From: Caldilineaceae bacterium
GTDB lineage: Bacteria > Chloroflexota > Anaerolineae > Caldilineales > Caldilineaceae
NCBI GenBank assembly: GCA_028819675.1
Contig: JAPPKT010000410.1
Location: 1-9,381 of the forward strand
Length of the DNA stretch: 9,381 bases
Direction: 5' to 3'
Position numbers and translations under genes: made by a program. Below are positions 4,117 through 9,345 of this stretch, piece after piece. How positions within the stretch are numbered: position 1 is the stretch's first letter; each line of letters begins with the position of its first letter. The notes under the pieces were generated by a model, which was not told the origin of the DNA, made no database searches, and saw only the letters and a program-made list of their open reading frames with translations.

Positions 4117-5217
4117 TTAGAAGTGCCCTTCGTCCCGCAACATGTACAACTGCGACGAGCGGTCGGCCAGCGGCAGCTCCACCGGCCGGTTCCCCTGCCG
4201 CTGCGACTCGTATATACCCATCACCATCTCCAGCGACGCCACCCCGTCCTCTCCGTTCGAGCTCGGCTCGCCCCCGTCCTCGATGCAGCGCACCAACTCC
4301 TCCACCGCCAGCTGGATCGAGCTCGCTTCCTCAATCGCCGGAAACGGCTGTGGCTCCAGCGTATACCACTCAATCCGGGGATCCGGCTCATTCAGGCGGT
4401 CCGTCGTGTCCACGCCCAGCAGCCACTGGTTCCCCGCATACTCAAGACTGATTACGCCGTCTGTCCCCTGCAGTTCAAGTCCGAACCGCGCATAACGGGT
4501 CAGCTCATTGGCCATACTGACCGCGCTCACCCCGGAATGAAAGCTGAAGATCGCGTCGCTTATATCTTCCACCCTGAATTCGTGTCGGTGCCGTCGGTGG
4601 GCTGTCCCTATCACCGACTTGACATCGCCCGCATATATCCTGAACAAGTCAAACGTATGCACCGCATCATGGATCAGCGGCCCTTCCTCGTCCGCCGTCC
4701 AAGCCGGAAACGGCTTCACCCCCTGGCAGATGCCCAGCATCGAAATCAGATCGCCAATGGCGCCCTCATCCAGCATCTCCTTCGCCTTAATGAAAGCCGG
4801 GTTCCAGCGCCGCGAATGGTTCACCGACAGCACACACCCCGTGCTCCGGCACGCCGCCACGATCGCGTCCCCATCCTCCAGACTCAGCGCCAGCGGCTTC
4901 TCACACAGAATGCCCTTCGCCCCGTTCTCAACCGCCGCCTCGACAATGTCCCGGTGCAGCCCCGGATGCGTCGCCACGCACACAATATCCAGCTTCTCCT
5001 TCTCCAGCATCTCCCTGTAGTCCAGGTAAAGCGCGTCCACATCCCACATCTTCCCGAACACCTGCAGATGCTCATTACCCCGGCTCGCCCCCGCCACCAG
5101 CTCCGTCTGCGCACAAACCGCCACCCCGCCCGCATGCGTAAGCGGCGTCGGCGGGTCCGTCTCCCAAAGAGTCCCAATCCGACCGCAACCAACCAGCCCG
5201 GCACGATAAGTATTCAT
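4117..5217 (-). CDS. Gfo/Idh/MocA family NAD(P)-dependent oxidoreductase
   Basis: At 366 aa this is a normal-length member of the Gfo/Idh/MocA family, which oxidises or reduces sugars, inositols and related polyols in the cytoplasm. The N-terminal Rossmann fold carries VGCGRIG (9-15; G10, G12, G15). The dinucleotide/substrate motif CEKPLAL is at 105-111 (catalytic-type K107). VNHSRRWNP (132-140) begins the C-terminal alpha/beta domain. The active-site helix GPLIHDAVHTFDLFR (179-193) supplies the expected D184 and H187. The rest is the beta-sheet dimerisation domain. The ATG at 5217 follows AAAGGAAC. It is the first gene of the four-gene minus-strand cluster, and an 8+8-base inverted repeat lies just upstream, so regulation by a sugar-responsive factor is possible. 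Substrate cannot be deduced from sequence alone. Confidence 0.95.
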   Translation of the reverse strand: MNTYRAGLVGCGRIGTLWETDPPTPLTHAGGVAVCAQTELVAGASRGNEHLQVFGKMWDVDALYLDYREMLEKEKLDIVCVATHPGLHRDIVEAAVENGAKGILCEKPLALSLEDGDAIVAACRSTGCVLSVNHSRRWNPAFIKAKEMLDEGAIGDLISMLGICQGVKPFPAWTADEEGPLIHDAVHTFDLFRIYAGDVKSVIGTAHRRHRHEFRVEDISDAIFSFHSGVSAVSMANELTRYARFGLELQGTDGVISLEYAGNQWLLGVDTTDRLNEPDPRIEWYTLEPQPFPAIEEASSIQLAVEELVRCIEDGGEPSSNGEDGVASLEMVMGIYESQRQGNRPVELPLADRSSQLYMLRDEGHF

Positions 5218-5340: not shown

Positions 5341-5370
5341 TGTAGGGGCACCCCTCGTGGGTGCCCTCCC
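5341..5370. repeat. GGGGCACCC hairpin repeat
   Basis: Perfect 8-pair stem GGGCACCC (5346-5353) and GGGTGCCC (5359-5366) with a 5-base loop CTCGT, preceded by TGTAG and followed by CCCGGGCCCGC. It is very GC-rich in an otherwise AT-richer spacer. It lies 47 bases beyond the nuclease stop codon, but there is no T-tract on either side, so it is unlikely to be a standard intrinsic terminator. The form resembles the GTAGGGGC...GCCC hairpins I recall as dispersed repeats in Chloroflexota and cyanobacteria. Confidence 0.65.
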
Positions 5371-5413: not shown

Positions 5414-5896
5414 TTACCCCTTGAGCGAATCGGCCAGATTCCCTCGGCGATTACAACGTGCAATCTTGATTGTTAGTCGTTGGCCTCGAAAATTTACTTT
5501 GAGGCGGTTCAGCGTACGGAGTTGCTTTGGGTGGATTCGTTTGCCGTAGAACACTACAGGAATAAGTTTGGATTCCATACCTCTCAGCGCGACGCGTACA
5601 GCGAAGTTTGCCCCTTGCTGCAACTGCCCATGTACTTCAGATGCATCTACATTCCCGGCCTTCAACTCCGCCGGTACCGTAAGGAGCTTGCCGTCTGTGT
5701 CGACCAGAAATATTACCAAGTCGCATCGACTTCCTTCAAGCGAGTGGTCGGGAAACGCGCGATCTGCGTCCACCGTAATTCGTGGCGAAGGCACGCCATC
5801 CAAATAAACCCGGCAACCCTCACGTCGGTGCGACCGGCTAAGATTCTCTTCCCCTACTCTGGACCTGATCGTGTCTAGGACTTCACCCCTGCTCAC
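5414..5896 (-). CDS. Small PD-(D/E)XK nuclease-like protein, partner of the upstream ATPase
   Basis: I do not recognise a named family for this 160-aa protein, but it has a clear PD-(D/E)XK nuclease core. D59 lies on a hydrophobic strand (CDLVIFLV, 58-65). PAELKAG (75-81) then gives E77-x-K79. The following helix contains Q91 (HGQLQQG), as in RecB/Hjc-type nucleases. E16 or E17 could be the N-terminal helix acid. The C-terminal third (118-152) is rich in Lys and Arg and could bind nucleic acid. It starts with GTG at 5896, inside the last codons of the ATPase gene (14-base overlap), with AGGAG 9 bases upstream, implying translational coupling and a joint function. Its base composition, like that of the ATPase, is poorer in GC than the flanks. 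Likely role: effector nuclease of an ATPase-gated defence module. Fold confidence is moderate to high, biological role inferred. Confidence 0.75.
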   Translation of the reverse strand: MSRGEVLDTIRSRVGEENLSRSHRREGCRVYLDGVPSPRITVDADRAFPDHSLEGSRCDLVIFLVDTDGKLLTVPAELKAGNVDASEVHGQLQQGANFAVRVALRGMESKLIPVVFYGKRIHPKQLRTLNRLKVNFRGQRLTIKIARCNRRGNLADSLKG

Positions 5897-7463
5897 GCGC
5901 AGCGGCTCCTGCTAGTTCCTGGAACTGGTTCTGCAGTGCCGCTGACCGGTTGTAGAGCGCTTCCGCAACGCTTTCGTATTCCTCCGGCTCAATCCCTTCA
6001 ATCCTATCAAACGGTATCTCTTCAATCGTCGAACCGGAAGAATCGTCTTGCTCGCGAAATAGCCAGACTCCTACCTCCTCAGGCAGGAGCGAAACTGATT
6101 CGGCTGAATCGCTATCATGTTCCTTCGATAGTCCCTCTAATTCCCCCTCGCGCATCAGATTAGCGAGTTCCATCAGAAGCCAGTCGCTGTGGGTGGTTAC
6201 GACTACCTTTACGCCAGCGCGAACGAGGCGAGCCAAGGTCCGGGCCATCTGCGTCTGAGCAGCGGGATGCAGATGTGCTTCAGGTTCTTCAATAATAAGC
6301 ATGTCGCCAGCGGAAACGATGCCTCGTAGAAACAGCACAACCGGGGCGAGTTCGGTCACCATTGACGACGCCCGCGCCAGCCGTATGTCCTTCTCGGTCT
6401 CCCAGGGCCGGTAGACAAACTCCGGATATCCCCCTGCGATGGCTCGATTCGACCTGATCCGCCCTGCAAGTGTTTCTCGCTCTAAAGCATCCGCGGCCTT
6501 GGCCATTGAACCCACGCTACTACGGTCTTCCTCAAAAAGGATCAATTTTTGCAAGAAATCTGATATCATGCCCGAAAAGGTAGGAAGCTCTGGAAAGCGC
6601 TCCATTCCGACGCGAGTTGACCGCGCTACTAGAGAGCTGGCGATAACGCGGTGGCTCTGCATAATGCCACTACGGGCGGCCGGCAAGTAATGAGTTTCAC
6701 CATGCCAGCCCGCAGCACTAGCGAGGTGCTTTTCAAAAGAGTCAAGAATAAAAGGGCTTGTTATCCAAGCATCTTCTCTAAGGGAGTCCTCAAGCAACTG
6801 TTGAAATTGCTGCAGTTCTCGCCTGATTCCTAGCTCTTCAGCTGACCATCCCTTTGGGAGAAGTACAATGTCTTCGACTTTGCCATCTGTAGATAAACCA
6901 GAATCAGTAACACACAACGCGTAGCTCCACAGATCTTGCTTCGCCTCACTGGCCCTTAGGGAAATCTCCATTTTCGCGCTTGCGGGCAACCGGACCAGTT
7001 CAGAAACTGATTCAAGATCGAAGCAGCGCTCCAGTTCAATTCCAATGAATTCACCCAAAGAAAAAGGATCTCCTATGGTGATCCAGGCGGTATCTTGCAG
7101 ATTAATGGGAAAGTCCGAGAATTTGAACTGCCTACCCTCTGCATCCAGTTTCGCCCTAAAATCTTGGATATCCTCCTTGGTGAAGGCATACCCTCCTGGC
7201 AGGTTCGAATCTAAATCAAAAAAAGGACGCCTTTCATGATCTATGACCGGTAGCCGTCGAAATCCACCCATTATTTGCCGCAACGCATAAACCAATACGG
7301 CGAAGTAAGTTTTTCCGGTGTTGCTGGGACCAACAAGAACTGTCAAAGGGCGTAAGTCTACTGCTCCACTCTCGATAGGCCCGAAGTTTTTTACCGAAAC
7401 GCGAAAGTCTGGCGGGTCACCCCAATGAAGACCCTGGATTTCGGTAGTCTCGTGTTCGCACAT
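5883..7463 (-). CDS. AAA/ABC-type ATPase of the OLD/AAA_15/AAA_21 group
   Basis: A 526-aa cytoplasmic ATPase with an SMC/ABC-like head. Residues 19-30 (DFRVSVKNFGPI) are the standard opening strand of this group. Walker A is GPSNTGKT (45-52), YLPAARSGI (259-267) is a conserved mid-protein motif, and ASSMVTELAPVVLFLR (365-380) is the signature-like region. Walker B is MLIIEEPEAHLHP (388-400, E392/E393), and the switch histidine is in VVTTHSDWLL (421-430). About 200 residues between Walker A and YLPAARSG form a mainly helical insert. The C-terminus (431-526) is acidic and lacks a TOPRIM domain, so this is not a complete OLD nuclease. The ATG at 7463 has AGGA 8 bases upstream. It overlaps the nuclease gene by 14 bases. 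Comparable ATPases pair with effectors in antiphage systems (Septu PtuA, PARIS AriA). ATPase identity is secure; a defence role is inference. Confidence 0.92.
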   Translation of the reverse strand: MCEHETTEIQGLHWGDPPDFRVSVKNFGPIESGAVDLRPLTVLVGPSNTGKTYFAVLVYALRQIMGGFRRLPVIDHERRPFFDLDSNLPGGYAFTKEDIQDFRAKLDAEGRQFKFSDFPINLQDTAWITIGDPFSLGEFIGIELERCFDLESVSELVRLPASAKMEISLRASEAKQDLWSYALCVTDSGLSTDGKVEDIVLLPKGWSAEELGIRRELQQFQQLLEDSLREDAWITSPFILDSFEKHLASAAGWHGETHYLPAARSGIMQSHRVIASSLVARSTRVGMERFPELPTFSGMISDFLQKLILFEEDRSSVGSMAKAADALERETLAGRIRSNRAIAGGYPEFVYRPWETEKDIRLARASSMVTELAPVVLFLRGIVSAGDMLIIEEPEAHLHPAAQTQMARTLARLVRAGVKVVVTTHSDWLLMELANLMREGELEGLSKEHDSDSAESVSLLPEEVGVWLFREQDDSSGSTIEEIPFDRIEGIEPEEYESVAEALYNRSAALQNQFQELAGAAAREQG

Positions 7464-7740: not shown

Positions 7741-9039
7741 TCACACCCGCGAAATCCGCCGCCTGAACGGCCACCGGTACCGCAACCTCTGCCTCTCCCT
7801 GTACTCCTCATCCCCCGGCGTCGGCGCCGTCACCCGCCCAAACATCACCCAACCCATCACCAGGAAAGCCACACTCAGCAAAAAGACCGCGCTGTGCGGC
7901 GCACCCAGTCGCAACAGCCCAACCGTCACCAGCGGCGCCACCAGTCCCCGCAGCCCCACCACCGTCGACTGGATCGCCGCATACTCCGTCACCCGTTCCG
8001 GGTCAGCCAGCTGGATGCCCGCGCTGATCCGCCCCAGCTCGAAGCCCGCCATCCCCAGACCCCGCGCAATAGCCGAAGGCATCAACATCCACAGGCTTTG
8101 TGCCGACATGTAAGTGAGCGGCGTCACGATCGAGAGCGCCGCGATAGCCCGTACGACGAATAGACCGCCCCGCTTGTCGATCGTCCGTCCCCACACAAGA
8201 TAGCTGAAAAACCAGGTGATTGACTCCACCAGGCCCAGCAATCCAATATCAGAATACGAGAGCTGCAGGCGGTCCACCTGCACGACCGGGTATAGCGGCC
8301 AGCTTAGCAGCCCTCCCAGCCCGAAAAGCGAGTAACTGACCAGGTAGACGGCGAAATTCCTGTCGCTGCGCACAATCTGCCACAGATCGGAAAAAGTCTT
8401 CGTCTGGCGCGGCGGCAACTCCCCCTCGTCGAGGTCAATGCGCGTGAACAGATATGTGGCCAGAATGCCGAATAGCGCACCAATCGGGAAGAGGACCTGG
8501 TACCCTACCCTGTCCAAAGCCCACCCTGCCAATGGCGTGACCAACAGGATGATCGAAACGCGCCCCATCCGCACCGTCGACATCACCTTACCCCGCCCGC
8601 TCTCAGGATAAATCTTCTGGATCACCCGCGTATAGGCCGGGATCACAAACGCTTCCAACAGCCAGAACACGATCCCAATCGCCATCAGCTGCACCGCGCC
8701 CGTCACGAACGCCGTCAGCAAAAAGAGCGAACGCCCCAGCAGCCAGCAGAATACAATAATGTTGATCGTACGCCGCCGCCGCATCAACACGATGCTGAAT
8801 GACGTGAAGACCGAGCCGACAAAAAGCAGGGCTGTATACAGCGCCAGCATATCAACCGTGGCGCCCTGACGTCGCAGCACAACCTGCGTAAACGGGATAA
8901 TACAAGCATAAAAAACGCCGTAAGCCAGCGACATCGAAAGCTCGATGTGCATGACACGGCGCACAGAGGGCGAAAGTGAACCGGCCAGGGCCGTCTCGAC
9001 CCAAATGACGGTTCGACTCACTAATTCTTTTGTATTCAT
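7741..9039 (-). CDS. MFS transporter
   Basis: An integral inner-membrane carrier of the major facilitator superfamily, 432 aa from the ATG at 9039. An in-frame GTG at 9063 would add 8 residues, but GGAGCAAAG directly before the ATG is the better ribosome site, and the GTG lies inside a palindrome. I count about 12 hydrophobic segments, two sets of six divided by a charged loop near residues 200-222 (TRIDLDEGELPPRQTK). Loop 2-3 is strongly basic (RRRR, 87-90), at the place of MFS motif A. PESGRGKVMSTVRMG (145-159) and DRVGYQ (176-181) lie in the N-half, and the motif-A-like WGRTIDKRGG (283-292) in the C-half. The C-terminal 20 residues are Arg-rich and cytoplasmic. Substrate is unknown. It is not tightly linked to the genes downstream, being separated by 277 bases. 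Confidence 0.92.
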   Translation of the reverse strand: MNTKELVSRTVIWVETALAGSLSPSVRRVMHIELSMSLAYGVFYACIIPFTQVVLRRQGATVDMLALYTALLFVGSVFTSFSIVLMRRRRTINIIVFCWLLGRSLFLLTAFVTGAVQLMAIGIVFWLLEAFVIPAYTRVIQKIYPESGRGKVMSTVRMGRVSIILLVTPLAGWALDRVGYQVLFPIGALFGILATYLFTRIDLDEGELPPRQTKTFSDLWQIVRSDRNFAVYLVSYSLFGLGGLLSWPLYPVVQVDRLQLSYSDIGLLGLVESITWFFSYLVWGRTIDKRGGLFVVRAIAALSIVTPLTYMSAQSLWMLMPSAIARGLGMAGFELGRISAGIQLADPERVTEYAAIQSTVVGLRGLVAPLVTVGLLRLGAPHSAVFLLSVAFLVMGWVMFGRVTAPTPGDEEYRERQRLRYRWPFRRRISRV

Positions 9040-9053
9040 CTTTGCTCCAGCCT

Positions 9054-9069
9054 CAGGCACCACTGCCTG
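9054..9069. promoter_or_regulatory. Palindrome before the MFS start
   Basis: CAGGCA (9054-9059) and TGCCTG (9064-9069) are perfect reverse complements around the 4-base centre CCAC, ending 14 bases upstream of the preferred MFS ATG. A 16-base symmetric site at this position could be an operator for a local repressor or a leader hairpin close to the ribosome site. Evidence is symmetry and position only. Confidence 0.35.
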
Positions 9070-9298
9070 GCGTTATGCGTGCGACCTGTACTCAACACTC
9101 TACTTTCGGGCCGGAGCGTCCAACAAGATGCAACGGGCGAACTCGTCCCAAAACGCAACAACCCGGCCCGCCTCCACGGCAGCACCGGACATCACCAATA
9201 CCGTATCACAGACCCACATCCCCGCCAACCGAACCGGGCCTCTGCAAGCAATGATTCTCCAAACCGCTCTGCCCAGCCTTATCTCCCGCTCGGCTCCC

Positions 9299-9330
9299 AC
9301 TGACCACTGACTACTGACCACTGACCACTG
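9299..9330. repeat. Heptamer tandem array ACTGAC(C/T), copy B
   Basis: Four full units (ACTGACC, ACTGACT, ACTGACC, ACTGACC) and a partial ACTG. Unit and orientation are the same as in the array at 1640-1678, but the order of C- and T-ending units differs, so the two arrays are related but not simple copies. It is intergenic, about 260 bases upstream of the MFS start. Confidence 0.85.
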
Positions 9331-9345
9331 CTCTTCTGGGCGGTC

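Follow-up and report, generated by a model that had tools for sequence, protein, structure and literature searches.

Defence operons in which an ATPase of the ATP-binding cassette (ABC) type is encoded together with a PD-(D/E)XK nuclease have been published under the names PD-T4-4 and WonAB (PMC10952713; PMC9519451; PMC12137116). According to these reports, PD-T4-4 was obtained from E. coli by phage-survival selection (PMC9519451) and combines a PF13175 ATPase with a PD(D/E)XK protein (PMC10952713), while WonAB, said to resemble PD-T4-4, belongs to the V. cholerae WASA-1 prophage and is an operon of an OLD-type ABC ATPase followed by a PD-(D/E)xK nuclease (PMC12137116). In the latter system defence is described as dependent on each of the two genes and on the active site of each product, and it proceeds via abortive infection; WonA is predicted to dimerise, with WonB docked on its C-terminal extensions, and activation arrests translation with genomic DNA left intact, for which reason its authors suggest rRNA or tRNA as the target. 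They also see WonAB as part of a wider, uncharacterised group in which ABC ATPases are the sensors and nucleases the effectors (PMC12137116). PADLOC additionally holds a candidate system PDC-M47 (models PDLC04664-04669), whose name is absent from the literature searched. Here we describe a gene pair in a stretch of 9,381 nucleotides from a Caldilineaceae bacterium (contig JAPPKT010000410.1 of assembly GCA_028819675.1), referred to at its full length as the window, where a 526-residue ATPase precedes and overlaps a 160-residue protein. The pair is a divergent, widespread and poorly recognised branch of the PD-T4-4/WonAB/PDC-M47 kind, and we consider it to be a two-gene anti-phage cassette with a probability of about 0.8; its occurrence in a variable chromosomal slot, the replacement by VapC-like genes and the hypervariable insert in the ATPase are new.

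The two genes constitute a real, conserved and stable operon. Among 46 genomes of the family, some of them incomplete metagenome-assembled genomes, 17 nuclease matches were found in 12 genomes, all of them directly behind an ATPase match on the same strand, and reciprocally 17 of the 18 ATPase matches (E ≤ 1e-40) possess the nuclease, the exception being a 190-residue fragment at a contig end. A sample of 400 genomes of the phylum gave 13 with a nuclease match, one of them already present in the family set, and each nuclease again adjoins an ATPase. Altogether 29/29 nuclease loci (17 from the family and 12 further) have the ATPase as neighbor, always first and on one strand. Relatives of both proteins are numerous (5,362 for the ATPase among 8,000 candidates scored; for the nuclease, 41 at E ≤ 1e-3 in the initial search and 453 by profile), and these numbers, like the linkage in 29/29 loci, lie far beyond chance. 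Contig sizes coincided 22 times between 120 ATPase and 126 nuclease protein-database records, compared to 0-1 coincidences in six shifted versions. Up to three copies per genome occur (G411). In two copies (G411:C3 and G417:C1) the match to the ATPase contains one reported in-frame TAG, probably an ordinary stop because complete ATPase reading frames of 522-523 residues end just inside the match. The overlap of the two genes suggests translational coupling, and the start of the nuclease is called as GTG in 5/5 copies compared in the slot described below.

The small protein gave nothing above cut-off in Pfam and no match to HNH at E ≤ 1. Its AlphaFold2 model has a predicted local distance difference test score (pLDDT) of 94.0 and a predicted template-modelling score (pTM) of 0.89, and its best fold matches in Foldseek and VIA-align, all modest, are mostly entries which we take to have the PD-(D/E)XK nuclease fold. 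In Foldseek, enzymes acting on DNA stand nearest, EcoO109I and EndoMS among them, and in VIA-align the top rows are mostly CRISPR ancillary nucleases of Can2/Cdn1/Card1 type, all with Z < 8 and with rows within 1 Z regarded as tied. In an alignment of the window protein with 40 relatives, hand-picked from two homology searches, D59, E77, K79 and Q91 are each invariant (41/41). According to the predicted model D59 precedes strand 60-65, E77 and K79 end strand 71-79, and Q91 lies within helix 85-102. Sequence and model taken together thus point to the core pattern of PD-(D/E)XK nucleases, D...(E/D)xK on adjacent strands with a following helix, and agree with the residues and the fold assigned in the original prediction. 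Four cysteines are near-invariant in the same alignment, C28 (41/41), C58 (39/41), C111 (38/41) and C148 (41/41), the window itself having L111; they could serve for metal binding or bracing of the fold. A search with the nuclease against viral, phage and plasmid sequences gave no match.

The larger protein matches AAA_15 (3.3e-21) and AAA_21 (1.6e-11) in Pfam, and TOPRIM was found at E ≤ 1 neither in it nor in its partner. The full set of ABC motifs listed in Table 1 is readily located, their names being assigned from general knowledge and RASSMVTEL being what we take to be the ABC signature; reading frame, motifs and Pfam here agree with what had been proposed for this ORF. The AlphaFold2 model (pLDDT 75.8, pTM 0.80; pLDDT below 50 at residues 1-14, 80-90, 265-294, 447-454 and in two short stretches near 490) matches the heads of PtuA, SMC and Rad50 in the structure search. 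The AARSGIMQSHR motif aligns in register with the (E/Q)R(T/D)(G/S)I...R stretch of PD-T4-4-type ATPases, and in the ATPase alignment with five plasmid proteins R264 and R272 are invariant, G266 and I267 being conserved in at least 90%.

Both proteins are related to the PD-T4-4/PDC-M47 group, and the evidence is of different strength for each. For the window ATPase the best PADLOC models are PD-T4-4_A (1.1e-39) and PDC-M47A (3.3e-29), ahead of NsnB, AriA, Old and GajA, the match consisting of two stretches and not running end to end. The same two models match 62/62 sequences of the ATPase alignment, which NsnB, AriA, Old, GajA and others also recognise, more weakly. Identity to five plasmid ATPases of PD-T4-4/PDC-M47 type is 19-22%, with invariant positions distributed from Walker A through the H-loop. 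A plasmid and phage search with the ATPase revealed distant kin only (42 plasmid and 5 phage records). Seven plasmid loci, hand-picked from 40 listed ATPase matches, were examined, the set leaving out phage matches and those annotated as DUF3696 (Burkholderia, Nostoc, Paracoccus, Cupriavidus, Photobacterium). All seven, to which this statement is limited, have a second gene of 176-210 codons, and its products match the PD-T4-4_B and/or PDC-M47B models, which cross-match one another.

These plasmid partners share with the window nuclease family the pattern D...(E/D/Q)xK...Q, in which C precedes D in 6/7 partners. A profile of the seven run over 5,496 open reading frames (ORFs) placed 18 of 23 family nucleases at ranks 1-18, the other five being unlisted at E ≤ 100, and the window nuclease at rank 6 (E 0.0032). 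In reverse, the profile of the 41-sequence nuclease set placed all seven partners first among 174 ORFs, the best at 2.7e-8 and the rest weakly at 0.016-0.74, and with another nuclease-family profile (A1) four partners came first and all seven fell within the top 8. Comparisons of window-family with known-group nucleases by hhalign gave 84.9% and 92.6%. Existing B-subunit models barely detect the window nuclease: PDC-M47B is the sole PADLOC model matching it at E ≤ 1, with a weak E of 0.05, and PD-T4-4_B has no match within that threshold. In the family as a whole PDC-M47B model PDLC04668 reaches 28/41 nucleases at E ≤ 0.1 (best 2e-6), and PD-T4-4_B models find one sequence each, at best 0.0044 and 0.011 with 42 scanned and 0.027 and 0.037 with 41 scanned. 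From these profile matches of both proteins it follows that both genes belong broadly to the PD-T4-4/PDC-M47 group, and that the nuclease falls outside PD-T4-4_B in the narrow sense.

The likeness to PD-T4-4 hence includes the two-gene composition and, in the ATPase, Walker A, the R264/R272 motif, signature, Walker B and H-loop; the differences are in size, 526 residues versus 460-474 model positions for the ATPase and 160 residues versus B-model lengths of 190-206 for the nuclease, and in the missing PD-T4-4_B match. PDC-M47 resembles the pair in its A subunit and differs in that its B model reaches the window nuclease only at the marginal value given above. WonAB, as described, has the same gene order and architecture, and is linked to the pair through its likeness to PD-T4-4 stated in PMC12137116; it resides in a prophage, whereas the window pair occupies metabolic slots of Caldilineaceae chromosomes. 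An operon of OLD-ABC ATPase and novel restriction endonuclease from an in silico survey cited in the same article shares the architecture, again by description (PMC12137116). More remote systems are distinguished by their effectors. The partner in Septu (PtuAB) is an HNH nuclease, and PARIS, OLD and Gabija have a TOPRIM domain fused or as a partner. Judging from PDB titles of retron IA entries, HNH also accompanies PtuA of retron Ec78, unlike the window partner with its predicted PD-(D/E)XK fold, and the absence of TOPRIM matches noted above separates the pair from the PARIS/OLD/Gabija type. The original prediction had regarded the combination of ATPase and small PD-(D/E)XK nuclease as distinct and undescribed. 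This no longer holds, PD-T4-4 and WonAB being published as such defence pairs, and by the kinship of both its proteins the locus falls largely within an already named group; a role in defence, as proposed, is likely.

Table 1. Features of the gene pair and of its flanks in the window
Feature	Window position	Strand	Residues or size	Basis and remarks
OLD/SMC-like ABC ATPase gene, first of the pair	5883-7463	minus	526 aa	ORF call; ATG start
Small PD-(D/E)XK nuclease gene, second of the pair	5414-5896	minus	160 aa	ORF call; GTG start
Overlap of ATPase and nuclease genes	5883-5896	minus	14 nt	nuclease GTG within the end of the ATPase gene
Walker A GPSNTGKT	7308-7331	minus	45-52	located in protein alignment
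Hypervariable insert	6699-7265	minus	67-255	identity comparisons; proposed trigger-sensing part
AARSGIMQSHR motif	6648-6680	minus	262-272	alignment with PD-T4-4-type ATPases
Putative ABC signature RASSMVTEL	6348-6374	minus	364-372	S366 and L372 invariant in alignment
Walker B and D-loop IIEEPEAHLHP	6264-6296	minus	390-400	located in protein alignment
H-loop TTHSD	6183-6197	minus	423-427	located in protein alignment
C-terminal extension	5886-6128	minus	446-526	analogy with WonA (PMC12137116); proposed docking site of the nuclease
Active-site candidate D59 (after C58)	5720-5722	minus	59	41/41
Active-site candidates E77-L78-K79	5660-5668	minus	77-79	E77 and K79 each 41/41
Active-site candidate Q91 on following helix	5624-5626	minus	91	41/41
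MFS transporter, upstream slot flank, outside the system	7741-9063	minus		Pfam MFS_1 and slot comparison
Gfo/Idh/MocA oxidoreductase, downstream slot flank, outside the system	4117-5217	minus		Pfam GFO_IDH_MocA and slot comparison

Comparison of related chromosomes showed that the pair comes and goes at fixed positions. The slot between the MFS transporter and the Gfo/Idh oxidoreductase (slot 1) holds it in the window and in four further genomes (G001, G002, G411 and G418). The oxidoreductase was found in 24 of the 46 family genomes: these four, G408 with its pair on another contig, five left unopened and 14 which were fetched. Four of the fetched genomes, where no transporter was found, were set aside; in the other ten the transporter (best match 85-96% identical; tandem in two) adjoins the oxidoreductase, and the interval of 169-1,414 bp is devoid of the pair. 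Five of these ten intervals (L098, L099, L100, L102 and L104) contain a VapC-like gene, assigned through a match to VapC43 in L098 (E 2.4e-16) and by likeness in the other four. An ORF of 82 codons upstream of the gene in L104 has the look of a ribbon-helix-helix antitoxin and no PDB match.

In a second branch of the pair, represented by six loci (L061, L062, L064, L067, L068 and L070), it stands directly upstream, on the same strand, of a probable S-adenosylhomocysteine hydrolase and S-adenosylmethionine synthetase (slot 2), the identities of hydrolase, synthetase and kinase genes being based on Pfam tallies without member names and on sequence appearance. A scan with PF05221 at E ≤ 1e-40, too strict a cut, yielded 0/46 genomes and was replaced by a protein query. 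All nine other relatives fetched lack the pair in slot 2; one of them, G406, has a hydrolase with 98.8% identity to the pair-adjoining one of G417. Across both slots, then, the two genes appear and disappear as one compact block; mobility genes did not come to notice, no search having been aimed at them. As regards classical defence islands, the pair occupies variable sites, but near 19 pair loci matches to defence models showed no clear excess over control regions (34 PADLOC families at E ≤ 1e-20 in 112 neighbor ORFs versus 24 in 112 control ORFs, counted as families and not as proteins). The comparison covered 19 of 20 loci, L074 being dropped since the simple gene caller, which may choose spurious antisense ORFs, found no core gene there, and 112 of 120 selected control ORFs, eight being left out to equalise numbers.

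In all ten genome pairs compared the nuclease had a ratio of nonsynonymous to synonymous substitution rates (dN/dS) of 0.10-0.16; for the ATPase nine of the ten pairs were computable and gave 0.13-0.18, dS being near saturation in several pairs. The flanking genes gave lower values (0.06-0.09 and 0.03-0.06). These ratios suggest purifying selection on both genes, less strict than on their neighbors. Divergence is concentrated in the insert of the ATPase, where the window is 38% identical to G411 and 32% to G418, versus 69-85% in the ABC and C-terminal parts; over 62 ATPases mean pairwise identity is 0.40 in the insert versus 0.74-0.82 in the ABC parts. The most pronounced case is G001 versus G411, with nucleases 95% identical (dS 0.24) and ATPases 66% identical (dS 1.5). 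Nucleotide identity of these ATPase genes is 0.43-0.73 before residue 260, then 0.71-0.79, and 0.79-0.90 after residue 381, as would look like a recombinant, the other reading being a faster change of the insert alone. Over 23 loci distances in the nuclease correlate (Spearman) with those in the extension (0.71), the ABC core regions (0.71 and 0.73) and the insert (0.61), with partial correlations of 0.24 (p 0.004) for the insert and 0.25 (p 0.001) for the extension. As the C-terminal extension does not stand out from the other regions in this test, the docking of the nuclease on it is proposed from the analogy with WonA and from the G001/G411 mosaic.

Taken as a cassette of the PD-T4-4/WonAB/PDC-M47 kind, the pair would operate as follows. 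With ATP the ABC ATPase would probably form a dimer that senses and regulates; the infection trigger is probably met by its hypervariable insert, and the PD-(D/E)XK effector would probably be held on the C-terminal extension and be released or activated upon sensing. The activated nuclease would then cut nucleic acid and halt the infected cell. That the nuclease is catalytic, that the two proteins form a complex and that the ATPase senses infection is inferred, and so are target and outcome, abortive infection being likely by analogy with WonAB; the target may be RNA (tRNA or rRNA), the suggestion made for WonB, or DNA. The gene overlap together with the GTG start, kept in all five slot-1 copies, fits an effector that is not to exceed its regulator and would stop the nuclease from outrunning the ATPase. 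Going further, we tentatively suggest, as a possibility that is rather less than even, that the pair exemplifies an unnamed large chromosomal branch in which the insert is an exchangeable sensor, the nuclease moves along with the ABC core and the extension, and whole cassettes trade places with toxin genes of VapC type at constant sites among housekeeping genes.

Defence might instead be exerted by cutting phage DNA directly, in a restriction-like manner without cell death, the ATPase recognising some DNA feature or structure. The DNA enzymes nearest in Foldseek and the SMC/Rad50-like head would suit this, as would the outcome of the screen by Vassallo, where 7 of 11 putative DNA-acting systems gave direct immunity and not abortive infection (PMC9519451); on the other hand, overproduction of WonB, the closest studied relative, spared genomic DNA and stopped translation (PMC12137116), and the leading VIA-align rows, tied within 1 Z and all below 8, are mostly of Can2/Cdn1/Card1 type. 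We regard direct cutting as conceivable, with a chance rather less than even. The same head fold, along with the metabolic surroundings and the position kept in several related genomes, might also bring to mind a housekeeping repair pair comparable to Rad50/Mre11 or SbcCD. Such a role is highly improbable for a pair which is present in only 12 of 46 family genomes (some incomplete) and lacking at the corresponding sites of close relatives, reaches three copies in G411, diverges fast in its insert and finds its closest profiles among defence proteins.

The VapC-like gene in the same slot of five of ten pairless relatives, the overlap of the genes and the toxicity of WonB when it exceeds WonA (PMC12137116) direct attention to a stabilisation module of toxin-antitoxin type, with the nuclease as a toxin neutralised by the ATPase and maintained by addiction. 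Yet the ATPase precedes the nuclease and carries ABC motifs, and toxicity of WonAB is reported to need ATPase activity, by which its authors consider simple sequestration ruled out (PMC12137116), making this explanation unlikely as well. It nevertheless shades into the anti-phage cassette favoured here, because toxicity and defence are compatible.

As regards the immediate surroundings, G+C content per 500-base window is 0.47-0.56 over the pair versus 0.56-0.65 in the flanks. Promoter and terminator scans performed no better than chance, and a scan with Rfam gave no match. Shortly 3' of the nuclease a palindromic repeat GGGCACCC-N3-GTGGGTGCCC, possibly an interspersed repeat, is located at 5346-5366 of the window, 7100-7120 of L002 and 361-381 of L027; it was found in the window, G002 and G408. 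Short direct repeats of ACTGACTACTG type lie at 1631-1693 and 9297-9331, 7.6 kb apart and flanking the gene run; an exact 17-nucleotide pattern derived from them occurs in 0/120 loci. Among the metabolic genes, positions 117-1595 encode an M81 metallopeptidase or microcystinase MlrC-like protein (Pfam 9e-87; 228 bits with NCBIfam MlrC, far below the model cut-off).

For the WonAB-type group the locus adds a branch in which ATPase relatives number in the thousands and the nuclease is barely seen by current B-subunit models. Its natural mosaics, in which near-identical nucleases accompany very different inserts, hint at which part of the ATPase may sense the phage, so that the question of the trigger becomes directly testable by domain swaps.

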